A DNA stretch of 21,768 nt from a virus: positions 1 to 21,768 of the IMG/VR virus record IMGVR_UViG_3300042518_001019; one strand, 5' to 3'. Below are positions 3,865 through 18,730 of the stretch, in pieces. The first letter of the stretch is position 1. The number at the start of each line of letters is the position of its first letter. A program made the position numbers and the translations under genes. The notes beneath the pieces are model-generated. The model was not told where the DNA came from. It did not search any database and was given only the letters and a program-made list of their open reading frames with translations.

Positions 3865-4188
3865 TTAAGGGCGTGTTCTGATTTTTTTTAGAACAACGGC
3901 GGCGTCTTCTTTGACGTTTTTGTTATAGCTTTTCCAGTTTTTAAGATGGCCGACGAATAGATGGCAATTGCCGCCGTTCTCGCAAAGAGTAATAAAATTG
4001 GACGCTACAAGTTCTAGGTCGGGGCGCTGGTGGTAAGGCTCAATATGATGCACTTCCAGCTTGTCGGCGCTGCCGCATGCGGCACAAGTTGAATTTGTTT
4101 TTAACCATGCTTTGCGTACTGCCGGCCATTGCGGCGAACGTGCTGGCATACCGGCAAAATATTCGGTAAGTCGTTTTACAATGCTCAT
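3865..4188 (-). CDS. HNH endonuclease
   Basis: 107 residues from the ATG at 4188, which overlaps the DUF3310 stop by ATGA. The HNH motif is clear: CAAC (35-38) is the first zinc pair, EVHHIEPY (45-52) holds the catalytic His pair, NFITLC (64-69) the Asn and third Cys, and NCH (74-76) the last ligands. Phage HNH proteins act as nickases or packaging-associated nucleases, and this one lies far from terL by gene order but in the same transcript direction. A longer version starting upstream at 4302 is possible but would read through DUF3310, so the short form is preferred. It could also be a homing-type endonuclease, but no intron or intein is visible. Confidence 0.85.
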   Translation of the reverse strand: MSIVKRLTEYFAGMPARSPQWPAVRKAWLKTNSTCAACGSADKLEVHHIEPYHQRPDLELVASNFITLCENGGNCHLFVGHLKNWKSYNKNVKEDAAVVLKKIRTRP

Positions 4189-4406
4189 TGTTTTATTTCC
4201 AATAGTGCCTTGTGAATGTACCATTGCGCTTTGAGCAAGTTTTCTTCTAGCGTGTCTTTTAGTCTGGCACGCCATAAATATTTGATTGCCTGCCCTCGGC
4301 AAAAATCAATAAAGGCTTCTTTGCCTAGGGCGGCTTTAATGGCTTCAATGCACTCGACGCCGGCGGCGGTGTAATGCGGCGGGTGGTTTATTTTGCTGCT
4401 GTCCAT
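4185..4406 (-). CDS. DUF3310 family protein
   Basis: 73 residues with the family's hallmark segments: NHPPHYTAAGVECIEAI near the N-terminus, then FCRGQAIKYLWRARLKDTLEENLLKAQWYIHKAL. DUF3310 (SaV-like) proteins are widespread in phages, often described as nucleotide-kinase-like in annotations, but the function is unproven. The ATG at 4406 touches the upstream stop (TAATG), and the stop overlaps the HNH start, so it is coupled on both sides. Confidence 0.85.
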   Translation of the reverse strand: MDSSKINHPPHYTAAGVECIEAIKAALGKEAFIDFCRGQAIKYLWRARLKDTLEENLLKAQWYIHKALLEIKQ

Positions 4407-5944: not shown

Positions 5945-6388
5945 TTAGAAAGGCAAGTCTTCTATGAACTCGTCTTCCTTTTCTTTTTGCCCTGCTGGGT
6001 GCGGTAAATAGGCACGTATGCGGGCGTACGTTTTGCCTTGGTACGCTTCGTTGCTGGTTTCAATCTGCACCCTTTTTCCGACAAGCTCGGCGCTGTCGTT
6101 AGGGTTGTCCAGGCTGACGGCCTCGCATATTTTTATTAAGGTTTCTTGGGCAATGGCCATAGCCTTTACACTTGGGTTGCGTAGATTAAGGCGGTCAAAT
6201 ACCCTTAAGCCTGCTTGGGGGCCCTCATCGACTTCAAGCATCAACTGCAAATATTCGCCGGTGCCTGCCTTGGTCAATTTGGTTTCTTCGGTTTTTATTA
6301 CTGCGCTGTAGGTGCCTGGTGGCAATTCTACTGGTACCCTTTTTGACGGTGGCGTTGATGGTGAAAAATCTGTGTCGTTAAAAATCAT
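5945..6388 (-). CDS. DUF669-family ssDNA-binding-like protein
   Basis: 147 residues from the ATG at 6388, with AGGAG seven bases upstream and an ATGA overlap with the previous gene. The sequence fits DUF669 proteins of phage recombination modules: MIFNDTDFSP at the start, PPGTYSAVIKTEETKLTKAG and YLQLMLEV in an OB-fold-like region, and KICEAVSLDN in the middle. The acidic C-terminal tip DEFIEDLPF resembles the tip of single-stranded DNA-binding proteins (D-D-D-x-P-F), suggesting it recruits partner proteins in the same way. It belongs to the RecT-Gp157-organiser set and likely coats single-stranded phage DNA. The family's exact activity is not firmly established. Confidence 0.75.
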   Translation of the reverse strand: MIFNDTDFSPSTPPSKRVPVELPPGTYSAVIKTEETKLTKAGTGEYLQLMLEVDEGPQAGLRVFDRLNLRNPSVKAMAIAQETLIKICEAVSLDNPNDSAELVGKRVQIETSNEAYQGKTYARIRAYLPHPAGQKEKEDEFIEDLPF

Positions 6389-7143
6389 ACTAAATCTCCT
6401 GGTTTCCAGTCTCGAACAATCGGGCCCTCTGACCATGCCACGCTGGCAGTGTCAATCTTTGTTGGTTCGTCGCCAGGCAATAACCCGTAACGAACGCTCA
6501 TTCGTGAAATAAGATTGTCTAAAACGTTGCGGGGCTGCTGTGCGGCGCTCTGCAATTGAATAGTTATGTCTTCAACAAGTAGCGCCTTTTCAACGGCTGT
6601 TTCTGCCCTTGCTTTTACTTGCATTCGCCATTTGGGATTGCGGGTAAAGTATTCGGTGCTGCCCATTAGGGCCCTGTCCCTGCCGTCTTTGACGCCGGCA
6701 TAAACTCGGCCATCGGGGCACCGGCACCATACGGCTGCGGTGCGGCTGCTGCACCATACGCCATCTACAACGTCGGGCAACCATGGCACGGTAATTAGTC
6801 CGCTGTTTAAACAGTCCGTGCAAACGCCTCTTTCTTCGGCAACCTGGTAGGCGGTGCGCTTCATTTTTTCCCTGCGAAACATTAGCGCATGTTGCTCTAA
6901 GGCGTTTAAATGTTTCTCATGCGAAAATGGCGGTATTTCCTGACGTGCGACGCCGTCCGTCGCCGCCGTCATTTCCTCAGCGGTAAAGCCATAGCGCCGG
7001 AAAAATCCGATCCACGTGCCAACCATTTTGCCGTCGGCGTCGTTGTGCCAACCAAATAAAGTTCGGTGGTAGTCGGCCCAGCGGAACCATTCAGCCTTTT
7101 CGGCTTCGGCGTTTGCCTGGGTAATTAAGTTAGTTTCGCCCAT
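6385..7143 (-). CDS. Zinc-ribbon protein of the replication module
   Basis: 252 residues; the ATG at 7143 is preferred over an upstream TTG (7152) because GGAGG lies nine bases before the ATG. The middle carries CTDCLNSG and later CRCPD, consistent with a zinc ribbon of two Cys pairs separated by about 30 residues. The N-terminus (EWFRWADYHRTLFGWHND) is helical, and GFFRRYGFTAEEMTAATDGV resembles segments seen in phage replication-organiser neighbours. The gene overlaps the 3' end of the organiser by 14 bp and precedes DUF669, the position where a helicase loader often lies, but no Walker motif is visible, so I do not call it DnaC. Function unknown. Confidence 0.6.
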   Translation of the reverse strand: MGETNLITQANAEAEKAEWFRWADYHRTLFGWHNDADGKMVGTWIGFFRRYGFTAEEMTAATDGVARQEIPPFSHEKHLNALEQHALMFRREKMKRTAYQVAEERGVCTDCLNSGLITVPWLPDVVDGVWCSSRTAAVWCRCPDGRVYAGVKDGRDRALMGSTEYFTRNPKWRMQVKARAETAVEKALLVEDITIQLQSAAQQPRNVLDNLISRMSVRYGLLPGDEPTKIDTASVAWSEGPIVRDWKPGDLV

Positions 7144-7966
7144 TGTAAGCAACCTCCAAAACGTCTCGCTGCCTTGGGTCGGCGGCCATGGTGTTTAAAA
7201 GTTCCTCGGTGCTTTTTGGCGCCGCTGGGCCCCTTCGTTGCTGCTGGCGTAACTCTCGATCAGAAAACAAAAACAGGGGTTCCGTGCGGTCACGTTTTGG
7301 GTCAGCAATTGCGGCGGCGATTGCCGGCGCCGTTATGCCACGACGCAACGCCTCGGAAAAAACTTCTATTATTTTTGGAAAAGTTTCGTTGCCTGGGCGG
7401 CTGCCTTTAACGTAATGGTTCCATTCAAGGGTAAGCTCATGCGCCGGGTTTTCTGTGGGGGTGGGCACAACGGCCTGCCCCCCCTTGCCAAGAATAGGTA
7501 AGGATTGAATAGGTAAGCCAAGAATAGGTAGGTCGCTACTCTGAGAAGGTTTCTTGGTGGGGTCTAGTGGCGTACTAGGTTGGTTACTAGGTTGGCTACT
7601 AGGTTGGCTACTTAGTGGCGTACTATGTGGCACACTGGAAACGAACGATTTACCCTTGCGTGACATTATGCCTTTAACGTAAGTCGGGCAATGTTCTTCC
7701 CAGTCGTGAATAGCAAGTCGGGCGTCGGGGTGCCGATCTAGCCAACCCGTTTCGACCAGGGCAAGAATCATTTGATCGGGGTCGCCTGACCATTCCAGGG
7801 CGGCGGCAATATCTTCGTTGCTATGGCGTCCAATTGCCCCGTCCATGGCGTTAGCCATGGCAAAAACCCAAAGGCTTTCTAACAGGCCAACGGCCTGCCA
7901 GTGGGGCAATGCAAGTTTGCGTTTTAAGCGCATAAATTTTATGGACGCTGTCGTAGTTGCCTTCAT
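7130..7966 (-). CDS. Replisome-organiser-like protein with winged-helix N-terminus
   Basis: 278 residues; ATG at 7966 with AGGAGG seven bases upstream. The first 100 residues look like the N-terminal DNA-binding region of phage replisome organisers: KFMRLKRKLALPHWQAVGLL, then NEDIAAALEWSGDPDQM and LVETGWLDRHPDARLAIHDW. A low-complexity Ser/Gln/Pro linker with repeats (SQPS, SQPS, NQPS and a five-residue LPILG repeat) follows, then a helical C-terminal region (about 190-275) that would contact helicase or loader. The DNA under the linker forms two tandem-repeat arrays and looks like the replication origin, as the lambda origin lies in the O gene. The start of the next gene lies within its last codons. 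Confidence 0.72.
   Translation of the reverse strand: MKATTTASIKFMRLKRKLALPHWQAVGLLESLWVFAMANAMDGAIGRHSNEDIAAALEWSGDPDQMILALVETGWLDRHPDARLAIHDWEEHCPTYVKGIMSRKGKSFVSSVPHSTPLSSQPSSQPSNQPSTPLDPTKKPSQSSDLPILGLPIQSLPILGKGGQAVVPTPTENPAHELTLEWNHYVKGSRPGNETFPKIIEVFSEALRRGITAPAIAAAIADPKRDRTEPLFLFSDRELRQQQRRGPAAPKSTEELLNTMAADPRQRDVLEVAYNGRN
7492..7536. repeat. Iteron-like array A: three 15-bp direct repeats
   Basis: GAATAGGTA starts at 7492, 7507 and 7522, exactly 15 bp apart, with the following bases partly conserved (AAG in the first two). On the coding strand it encodes the LPILG repeat. Array B lies 25 bp away. Together they look like binding sites for the protein encoded by the same gene. Confidence 0.6.
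7561..7632. repeat. Iteron-like array B: six 12-bp direct repeats
   Basis: Copies start at 7561, 7573, 7585, 7597, 7609 and 7621. Three are near-identical (TACTAGGTTGGT/C), the fourth and fifth diverge (TACTTAGTGGCG, TACTATGTGGCA), and the first (GGTCTAGTGGCG) resembles the fourth. They encode a four-residue Ser/Gln/Pro repeat. Candidate origin within the replisome organiser gene. Confidence 0.65.
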
Positions 7967-7977
7967 GATTAAACCTC

Positions 7978-8484
7978 CTATTTAATGCGTAAATGTTGGC
8001 CACGGGGTAGGACGGTAACGCCTGCAACAATTTCGCCGCCCTTGATTTTTTCACGTATGACGTCAAGGTTTGGGCTAAGGGTAATTTTTTGACAATCGGC
8101 GGGTAGGTGCTCCGCTGGGACTGTAACCTCTAGCGGCTGCACGCCGCCGTTGTTACAGATCGACAAATTAAAGTTAGGCGTCTTTAATTTGTCGATGCTT
8201 TGCAGGCCAAAAAAGTACATTAATCGGCCCTTCATTGCCTTTACGGTGTTGCCGTCCTGGTCGCTTAGCTTGCGTATGCGTTCCGCTTCTTCCTTCCTGG
8301 CGGCGGCCGTCAATTCAAGCTCTCGAATAATGCGGCAATAGGCTTCGACTTTGTCCTCGATTTTGCCTTCTAGTTCGGCTAGAAGTTCATCAAGCACGGG
8401 GTCAAGTTCGCCGTCGCCGGCGTCGTCTTTAGTAGCCCAAAATTCCAATATCTTTGCGCCATGGGATAAATCTAAAATGCTCAT
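7978..8484 (-). CDS. Siphovirus Gp157-family protein
   Basis: 168 residues matching Gp157: a helical Glu/Arg-rich middle (ELEGKIEDKVEAYCRIIREL and AARKEEAERIRKLSDQDGNT), then LKGRLMYFF-like KGRLMYFFGLQSI with LKTPNFNLSICNNGG, the family's usual coiled coil followed by a beta segment. It sits directly after recT (TAATG overlap) with AGGAGG before its ATG. Gp157 proteins are frequent next to recT or DUF669 in siphophages; one is reported to confer resistance in Streptococcus phage work, but the role in replication or recombination is unsettled. Confidence 0.85.
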   Translation of the reverse strand: MSILDLSHGAKILEFWATKDDAGDGELDPVLDELLAELEGKIEDKVEAYCRIIRELELTAAARKEEAERIRKLSDQDGNTVKAMKGRLMYFFGLQSIDKLKTPNFNLSICNNGGVQPLEVTVPAEHLPADCQKITLSPNLDVIREKIKGGEIVAGVTVLPRGQHLRIK

Positions 8485-9383
8485 TACTTTGCACCTCCTG
8501 CAACGGTTACGGGTTCTTTAAAGGGGTTGTTTTCTGCGGCTTGTAAATCAATTTCATGGTTAAGATTAGCAATGACGGCCTCGGCGTCGTCTTGGCTTAA
8601 CTCGGTAGGCTTGCTCACGTTGTAAAGCGCTTTAACCTCGGCGCCCCATGCGGCCTTTTTTTCCTTGGTGTAGCCTAGTTCCTTCAAGAGAAAATTAATC
8701 TCTTTTAGTTGCTCCGGCGTGATTGCCATGCCGGCGGCGGGAATAATGACTTCACCATTTACGGGCGCTGGTGCCTTATCAGTAATTGGCGTTTCTGTGA
8801 TTAAACGGCTGCCATCGTCACAAATTGCCAAAACTTCTGTTTTGATTTTTGGCGCTTTAACCTCTTTGTCTTCAAACTCATCTGGTGCGTACACTCCTAA
8901 CATAACGGCGGGGGCATGACGGCGGGCCCAAATACGTGCACCCATGTAGCTAAGCATTTGATCGGGGTTTTTGTCCCAATGCTTATTGTCTGTGCGAACG
9001 TCTGAAAATTTTGCCGTTATTGTTCTGGCTTCTTCTTCGCCTTTAAGGGTGCCAATAACTGTAATTTCACGGTTATTACCTTCGCCTTTGTAGGTGTAGT
9101 TTAAGCTGCCATGAATAACGCCGCTGCCCTGGATAGCGGCGGCCACTAGCTTGCCTTCAAACATTAAATGGCCGTTGACAATGCTAGTAGCCTGCGCCAC
9201 TGCAAAGGGGCTCATGCCCCAACGAATGGCTTGCTCAATTACTAGCAAACAATCTGAAGGTGATTTTTGTAAATGATAAGGCACTAATTTTGCCCCTGCC
9301 ATTATCTCGGCCAGTTTAACGGCTTCGGCAAAGCCATTAATTTCAAGCGCCTTTTCGGGGCGTGCGGTTAAAGCTGTCTGCAT
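8484..9383 (-). CDS. recT: RecT-family single-strand annealing protein
   Basis: 299 residues with AAGGAG eight bases before the ATG. The sequence matches phage RecT proteins (Bet-like family): SPSDCLLVIEQAIRWGMSPF, AVAQATSIVNGHLMFEGKLV, AAIQGSGVIHGSLNY and GARIWARRHAPAVMLGVYAPDEFED. The N-terminal part binds single-stranded DNA and promotes annealing and strand invasion. The protein would pair with a nuclease during homologous recombination and replication; no RecE-like exonuclease is recognised in the window, but the PD-(D/E)XK-like and phosphoesterase genes could supply one. It overlaps the CsrA-like gene by 16 bases and abuts Gp157. Confidence 0.92.
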   Translation of the reverse strand: MQTALTARPEKALEINGFAEAVKLAEIMAGAKLVPYHLQKSPSDCLLVIEQAIRWGMSPFAVAQATSIVNGHLMFEGKLVAAAIQGSGVIHGSLNYTYKGEGNNREITVIGTLKGEEEARTITAKFSDVRTDNKHWDKNPDQMLSYMGARIWARRHAPAVMLGVYAPDEFEDKEVKAPKIKTEVLAICDDGSRLITETPITDKAPAPVNGEVIIPAAGMAITPEQLKEINFLLKELGYTKEKKAAWGAEVKALYNVSKPTELSQDDAEAVIANLNHEIDLQAAENNPFKEPVTVAGGAK

Positions 9384-17524: not shown

Positions 17525-18730
17525 TTAAGGTACTGTTAAATAAACAGACGCATTAACTTCGGTGTTTACGCTGGTTTCTAATAAGCCTGGTCTAATAACT
17601 GTAAGGTCTACTACTTGGCCGCTGGTCACTGCCACGGTGCCGGATATGGCCGCCGTCGTACCTTCGCCCCAAGGGCTAATATTATTACCATTAAATCCTG
17701 ACCCGTAGTCATGATTCGCCCAGTTAAAAGAGTAATGAAAAGTTCCTGCCGCCGACGGAGTGAAAGACCATGTCATTGCAGACGTGCCAGACTGCAACGT
17801 ATTATTATTACTTGAAATTACTTTTGGGCTAGCCTCGGTTCCTGCCCCTGAGTTAGTGGCGGTAGTCCAACCAGAGCCTTGCGCATAGATCGACGCTGAA
17901 ACTGTAGGCGTTGGCGTAGGTGGAGGCGTAGGTGGAGGCGTCGGTGTTGGTGTTGGCGTCGGTGTTGGTGTAGGCGTGGGTGTAGGTGTAGGTGTAGGCG
18001 TGGGTGTAGGCGTTGGGGTGCCGCCGCATACGGTACATATATCTGAGAACGGGTACCAACCACGGGTGCCGCTGGAGTTGGTGCCGTAAAATTTATTTGC
18101 TCCTGGATTTGCCACGTCACCGACCAGATTAAGGACGACGCCGGCGGCCAGTGTTGCCCCGCCGGTGATTGAATACCTAGTAGTTATACTGTAGTTGCCG
18201 GTTTGCTGGCCTACGACGACTGCCGTCCCGCTGTCGGGGCATATTGTTGCATACGTAACGCTTAGTTCCCCGTTGGTGCAATCAATTGACTGAATAACTT
18301 CAAAGCAATTGCCGCCGCTGCCGCTGCTGTTTCCGCTGCTGTTTCCGCTGCCGGCGGTGCCGCTGCCGGCGGTGCCGCTGCCCCCTGCAACAAATTCAAA
18401 TGTTGCACCAAATTTGCTTGAATCGCCGCCGTGGCGAATACGCATAATAACCTGGGTGCCGTTGGCTATTATGGCGCCTGGTAGTCCTAGAGCGTAGGCC
18501 GTGTTTGTTTTTTCGTCGCCTTTTAGCCCTGGGCTTGCAACCTCATAATTGCAACCATCTCGGCTTAGTGCAAGCTGGCGCCATGAGTAACCAATTGGGC
18601 AAGTTGAGCCCGAATTAAGGGTAGTCCGGCCCGTTATTTCGGCAACGAACCACTGCGGCGTAGAAACAGCTATTTCGCTGCCTGCGCCGTCGTAATTAAT
18701 CACTATGCCTTCGCCTGCTCTTATGGTCAT
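17525..18730 (-). CDS. Adhesin-like tail protein with Gly-Ser and Thr-Pro linkers
   Basis: 401 residues in modules: N-terminal domain about 1-115 (TIRAGEGIVINYDGAGSEIA); a Gly-Ser linker 116-140 (GSGTAGSG repeats, GNSSGNSSG); a Cys-containing domain 141-235 (CFEVIQSIDCTNGELSV ... CTVCGG); a Thr-Pro linker about 238-276; and a C-terminal domain 277-401 (VSASIYAQGSGWTTATN ... AAGTFHYSFNWANHD) that reads like a beta-sandwich carbohydrate-binding or tip domain. Such flexible linkers are typical of cell-surface adhesins and tail tip fibres. The DNA under both linkers is repetitive. It sits two bases after the 65-residue gene, in the tail transcript. Confidence 0.7.
   Translation of the reverse strand: MTIRAGEGIVINYDGAGSEIAVSTPQWFVAEITGRTTLNSGSTCPIGYSWRQLALSRDGCNYEVASPGLKGDEKTNTAYALGLPGAIIANGTQVIMRIRHGGDSSKFGATFEFVAGGSGTAGSGTAGSGNSSGNSSGSGGNCFEVIQSIDCTNGELSVTYATICPDSGTAVVVGQQTGNYSITTRYSITGGATLAAGVVLNLVGDVANPGANKFYGTNSSGTRGWYPFSDICTVCGGTPTPTPTPTPTPTPTPTPTPTPTPTPTPPPTPPPTPTPTVSASIYAQGSGWTTATNSGAGTEASPKVISSNNNTLQSGTSAMTWSFTPSAAGTFHYSFNWANHDYGSGFNGNNISPWGEGTTAAISGTVAVTSGQVVDLTVIRPGLLETSVNTEVNASVYLTVP
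17903..18020. repeat. 6-bp tandem repeat encoding the Thr-Pro linker
   Basis: About 118 bp of GTAGGT/GTTGGC/GTGGGT-type units, about 20 copies of a 6-bp period, reading Thr-Pro on the minus strand with two Pro-Pro units. Likely to change length by slippage. Confidence 0.85.

Follow-up and report, generated by a model that had tools for sequence, protein, structure and literature searches.

A replication initiator gene with an unusual linker

Why should the gene for a phage replication initiator carry two different tandem repeat arrays in the stretch that encodes its linker? The question is raised by a viral sequence of 21,768 nucleotides (IMG/VR record IMGVR_UViG_3300042518_001019, positions 1 to 21,768; hereafter the window). 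Below, we argue that the linker-coding DNA at 7485–7632 probably forms a two-part replication origin within the phage's own initiator gene. The features of the locus are listed in Table 1.

In a profile search, the protein matched the replication initiation protein family phrog_9474 at residues 8–93 with an E-value of 1.2e-19, which bears out an earlier note on this DNA that had described the gene as replisome-organiser-like. A second match was to phrog_13246, a replisome organizer family (E-value of 1.1e-07). Pfam yielded no match for the window protein, RepA_N included, and no RepA_N match for 17 relatives. A search of genome contigs found no relative.

An AlphaFold2 model of the initiator, for which the input alignment consisted of 17 relatives, predicts a winged-helix N-terminal domain and a helical C-terminal domain joined by a disordered linker, with pLDDT values of 34–42 over most of the linker. 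Both arrays lie in frame inside the DNA that encodes this linker. The top three rows returned by VIA-align for the model were RepA_N-type plasmid initiator chains (4pql, 5kbj and 4pta, with Z of 6.2, 5.9 and 5.3 and an rmsd of 2.6–2.9 over 79 residues), where a Z below 8 may mean a common arrangement only. The N-terminal domain of DnaD was also among the rows (Z of 4.2). At such middling Z values, the likeness of the model to RepA_N and DnaD chains is only suggestive, and Foldseek on its own returned nothing below an E-value of 0.001.

The initiator gene belongs to a replication and recombination operon, together with RecT, Gp157/Gam-like and DUF669/SSB-like genes. The gene that follows it possibly encodes a helicase loader. 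Shimadzu and nd4 carry a DnaC-like annotation on the gene that comes after the initiator. Profile searches with the window's 255 amino acid product gave no family match, and its AlphaFold2 model has a pLDDT of 40. The product contains C-x2-C pairs, and the gene is kept in relatives.

Table 1. Features of the initiator locus in the window.
Feature	Coordinates	Strand	Evidence or remarks
DUF669/SSB-like gene	5945–6436	−	phrog_6015 3.9e-21, PF05037
Next gene after the initiator, 255 aa, at the place of the helicase loader in related modules	6385–7152	−	Without family match
Replication initiator (replisome organiser) gene, 278 aa	7130–7966	−	phrog_9474 and phrog_13246 matches; relatives in viral contigs
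Helical C-terminal domain, aa 174–275	7142–7447	−	AlphaFold2 pLDDT 52–76
Disordered linker, aa 113–171, bearing both arrays	7454–7630	−	AlphaFold2 pLDDT <50
Array B, nine head-to-tail pentamers WWGNN (CWWNN on the coding strand)	7485–7529	+	
Array A, six 12-bp iterons, coding-strand core C-N-(T/A)-AGT, e.g. CCTAGTAGCCAA	7561–7632	−	
Winged-helix N-terminal domain, aa 1–104	7655–7966	−	AlphaFold2 pLDDT mostly 85–97
Gp157/Mu-Gam-like gene	7978–8484	−	PF05565 8.1e-23
RecT-like annealing protein gene	8484–9383	−	phrog_561 2.7e-58

Array A consists of 12-bp iterons

The earlier note had reported six 12-bp repeats, which we confirmed; the corresponding TRF call spans about 7565–7631. The three central units (TACTAGGTTGGN at 7573, 7585 and 7597) hardly differ from one another; the other three, on the outside, are degenerate. 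Being repetitive is not in itself diagnostic, because a stronger 12-bp array sits in a tail-type gene. This array, the strongest of its kind in the window, is a 12/18-bp repeat encoding TPTPTP at 17904–18013 in the tail-type ORF 17525–18730. Similar arrays are present in three related contigs.

Array A exceeds what its protein sequence would lead one to expect. None of 3000 synonymous resamples, drawn with the window's own codon usage, reached its period-12 score. The codon AGT is used for seven of the 14 serines in the linker; elsewhere in the gene it is used for none of nine, and across the ORFs of the window for 28 of 312.

The core of array A recurs in relatives, while the residue preceding the serine varies between Pro, His and Leu. 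In one relative, L012, the TAGT core persists at a spacing of 33–36 bp with differing amino acids in between. Another, L038, matches the window protein in the N-terminal part only, at an identity of 42%, and its repeat unit is CCTAGTAGCGAA. The excess of TAGT over synonymous resampling was significant in the window, L001, L011, L012 and L038. In L002, significance was limited to a looser core, and in L003 neither core fell below 0.05. The copy number of the 12-bp array differs among close relatives.

Array B consists of pentamers

The second array had been read in the earlier note as three 15-bp iterons (at 7492, 7507 and 7522). This reading has to be revised, as the element is periodic at 5 bp and consists of nine pentamers: TTGCC, AAGAA, TAGGT, AAGGA, TTGAA, TAGGT, AAGCC, AAGAA and TAGGT, all nine of which fit WWGNN. 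TRF reports a 15-bp array at 7487–7530 with 2.9 copies, and ACCTATTCTTGG occurs without mismatch only at 7488–7499 and 7518–7529. Tandem DNA units of 5 bp come back into the reading frame only every 15 bp, the least common multiple of five and three, and so necessarily encode a five-residue repeat. The residues encoded by array B are LPILG/LPIQS/LPILG.

The period-5 information at array B is 5.41, the maximum for the window, where the next highest value is 3.99 and the mean is 1.42 (sd 0.54). No resample out of 3000 synonymous ones reached the period-5 score (p 0.0003). For the run of nine CWW triplets, p was 0.0017, and runs elsewhere in the window have at most three on either strand. Periods of 4, 7, 8 and 11 gave no significant signal in the window. 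Plain lag-5 identity was not significant at the window's array B, where the register is degenerate and is seen by column information; the pentamer register is overt in L003, L011, L012 and L030. In three related phage contigs (40.7–42.8 kb), the contig-wide period-5 maximum likewise falls in the initiator gene, and array B is unique in the four records.

In a comparison to L003, with 77–80% protein identity (77% by tblastn), array B has 14 conserved codons, none of which shows a synonymous change, whereas 36% of conserved codons in the initiator gene are changed. The resampling results for both arrays, the AGT bias and these unchanged codons uphold the proposal in the earlier note that the repeats are under selection as DNA.

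A pentamer array very like that of the window was also found in L109, where a different N-terminal domain is fused to the same C-terminal end. It reads GTAAG, GATAG, GTTAG, GTAAG, GATAA, GTTAG and GTAAG.

Both arrays are widespread in the initiator clan

An alignment-based scan yielded 58 initiator loci. Tandem repeats scoring at least 15 were found in 77% of the initiator genes, compared to 2.7% of the other ORFs in the same loci. Lag-5 identity of at least 12 was found in 40% of 55 non-redundant genes and in none of 525 control windows. Array B was defined by a score of at least 12 at lag 5 or 6, and array A by a score of at least 9 at lags 10–12, 21, 22, 33 or 36. By this fixed criterion, which was chosen after viewing this first set of genes, both arrays were present in 38 of the 55 genes, compared to none of 333 control coding windows, and A preceded B in 35 of the 38. 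The criterion was then applied unchanged to a second set, which came from another query and retained genes sharing few 12-mers with the first set. Here, 27 of 37 genes contained both arrays, all but one of them (26 of 27) with A before B.

Pooling the non-redundant genes, both arrays were present in 65 of 92, and the one-turn iterons (A) were ahead of the 5/6-bp array (B) in 61 of the 65; these counts are not fully independent, as the phages are related via the initiator domain. The presence of two arrays in one gene, which the earlier note considered unusual, is instead the rule in this clan. The repeats are also conserved in relatives, as that note's reading implied: the arrays keep their place in the gene, and the core of A and the period-5 maximum recur. 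The window itself scores negative for B under the identity criterion, and its array B was recognised by column information.

Across the 92 genes, an excess over synonymous resampling was observed at lags of 5, 10, 15, 20, 25 and 30, at lags of 6, 12, 18 and 24, and at lags of 11 and 22. For lags 5, 10 and 11, the excess was found in 36, 45 and 33 genes, respectively, where 2.2 are expected. Lags such as 7–9, 13–14, 16–17 and 26–29 were near background.

Array B is usually strand-asymmetric: C-minus-G skew reaches the 95th percentile or more in 82%, and purine bias does so in 70%. This is supporting rather than decisive evidence because any short repeated unit tends toward extreme composition. 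We rejected AT-richness as a common property of B. In the window, array B is 60% AT and at the 93rd percentile of its own gene, but the median of the family is at the 46th percentile. We likewise rejected the idea that all phages share one consensus pentamer, as CWWAC-like and CTNNT-like types occur on either strand, in addition to purine runs. With two main pentamer types plus purine runs, only the register and the asymmetry are therefore general for B.

A further variation was observed in L073, L080, L070 and L069. The A units of these loci are GCATGC-like or ATGCGAAA-like at 11-bp spacing, and are followed by 6-bp pyrimidine-rich repeats that encode PSPSPS-like linkers.

Iteron classes and the winged helix

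Among ten TP901-1-type lactococcal loci, four classes of iteron match four classes of recognition helix, while the C-terminal end is near-constant. Such matching in the sequences would follow from reading of array A by the winged helix, although co-transfer by recombination could yield the same pattern. A precedent for joint replacement is found in pPR9, where the N-terminal domain of pSK41 Rep and its origin have been exchanged as one (PMC5703833). The iterons of the lactococcal loci (L099–L108) are 22–23 bp long, change with the recognition helix and are followed by an AT-rich 12-bp array. We discarded a Mantel test that compared the similarity of the arrays with winged-helix identity: both arrays follow relatedness, and A is not singled out.

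A proposed two-part origin

From these observations we infer binding, opening and origin activity along the following lines. The winged-helix N-terminal domain would bind the duplex iterons of array A, which lie about one helical turn apart. This binding would open or present array B, which lies downstream of A in the gene and would itself be opened or held single-stranded for helicase loading. The 5-nt register of B suggests one protein unit per pentamer. We propose that the low complexity and disorder of the protein linker follow from its being a by-product of DNA that has to serve as origin. GC skew, a check put forward in the earlier note, was uninformative: it is near-monotonic or flat in the window and three related contigs, and tracks gene orientation.

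More tentatively, array B may represent a distinct class of origin element. Its members would have a head-to-tail register on one strand, of 5 nt here and 6 nt in other phages. The initiator or the helicase loader would read this register on single-stranded DNA with one protein unit per repeat, in a manner like DnaA-trios with another step. This class could be common to a large part of the dsDNA phages with DnaD/RepA_N-like initiators, and could be the cause of their low-complexity linkers (PSPSPS, VDKTR, PNLTK).

We consider it rather doubtful that both arrays of the origin are double-stranded sites, A for the N-terminal domain and B for the C-terminal domain or the helicase loader, with alternate pentamers on one helix face and opening elsewhere. 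This arrangement would fit the observations that the signal at lag 10 matches that at lag 5 in strength and that B is not AT-rich as a rule. It fits less well with the strand asymmetry of B, a property of the lambda opening region (PMC5043065), and with the AT-rich repeats that TP901-1-type phages have at the position of B.

That the arrays have no function as DNA seems improbable. A disordered protein linker tolerates slippage, by which in-frame tandem repeats might spread neutrally, and the in-frame position of the repeats, the TPTPTP-type repeats that these phages carry in a tail-type gene and the variable copy number of the 12-bp array would all be consistent with this. Nevertheless, units of 5 bp and 11 bp do not fit the codon register and exceed synonymous expectation, the order of A and B is nearly fixed, the TAGT core of L012 is kept despite the differing amino acids between its copies, and the control coding windows, taken from the same loci, lacked the pair of arrays altogether.

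We think it equally improbable that the arrays are another cis site rather than an origin, be it a centromere for partition, a packaging site or an operator controlling initiator expression: iterons can act as centromeres or operators (for a centromere-type example, see PMC6669507) and initiator binding may autoregulate too, but the arrays lie between the DNA-binding domain and the C-terminal domain, a position also seen in lambda, SPP1 and pSK41 (PMC5043065, PMC6316719, PMC5703833), and a partition or packaging site is not expected to track the initiator gene across the clan.

Comparison with known origins

Origins inside initiator genes are already known from lambda, SPP1, TP901-1 and pSK41, so the lambda-like arrangement invoked in the earlier note has precedent. 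Like ori-lambda in the O gene, the proposed origin would place iterons ahead of a strand-asymmetric opening region midway along an initiator gene (PMC5043065, PMC7466680), and in lambda O and TP901-1 rep the iterons precede an AT-rich part, in the same order as A and B. Unlike the 12-bp direct repeats of the window, the lambda iterons are 18-bp inverted repeats that are 20–24 bp apart, and lambda has an AT-rich tract with no overt pentamer register where the window has a 5-bp array. Direct repeats and an unwinding element inside the replisome organiser gene are also described for SPP1 oriL in gene 38 (PMC6316719), and our analysis showed direct repeats within the replisome organiser gene rep of TP901-1. 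In both of these phages the unwinding element is A+T-rich, and we found no 5/6-bp array reported for them. SPP1 also differs by a second origin, oriR.

The initiator of the RepA_N plasmid pSK41 has a winged-helix N-terminal domain, as predicted for the window protein. The plasmid has Rep boxes in the middle of rep, and the linker that its ori encodes is dispensable as protein (PMC5703833). It differs in being a plasmid rather than a phage and in its RepA_N family, to which the window protein has no Pfam match, and we found no report of a pentamer array there.

A 5-nt motif, 5'-(G/A)ATCA, is recognised by RctB in the opening region of Vibrio cholerae ori2, and plasmid Rep proteins bind iterons as duplex as well as one strand of the opening repeats (PMC10797057). 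The V. cholerae motif and replicon are different from ours, and we did not find an unbroken head-to-tail 5-nt register described for them. Short repeats on one strand beside double-strand sites are also found in the DnaA-trios/DnaD recognition element of B. subtilis (CTACTATTACTTCTACTA), the TAG/AAG triplets of which resemble those in array B (PMC10201434). However, DnaA-trios have a 3-nt rather than a 5-nt step and belong to a chromosome origin. We rejected the identification of array B with this element, as its period is 5 and not 3.

A 5/6-bp second element as a general feature of intragenic origins appears to be new. A literature search, which reached few subscription papers and is thus weak evidence, found no report of a 5/6-bp array as a regular second half, nor did it find low-complexity linkers explained as a by-product of origin DNA. 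If true, a rule by which one-turn iterons are followed by a 5/6-bp array within the initiator gene would locate origins in many uncultured phages with no more than their sequence, and would account for the odd low-complexity linkers of such initiators. Reading of the 5-nt register on single strands, if it occurs, would amount to a phage-encoded way of marking the opened strand, beside DnaA-trios.

Elsewhere in the window, a small ORF at 3865–4302 has a weak match to an IscB model (E-value of 3.5e-4), and probably encodes an HNH-type nuclease.
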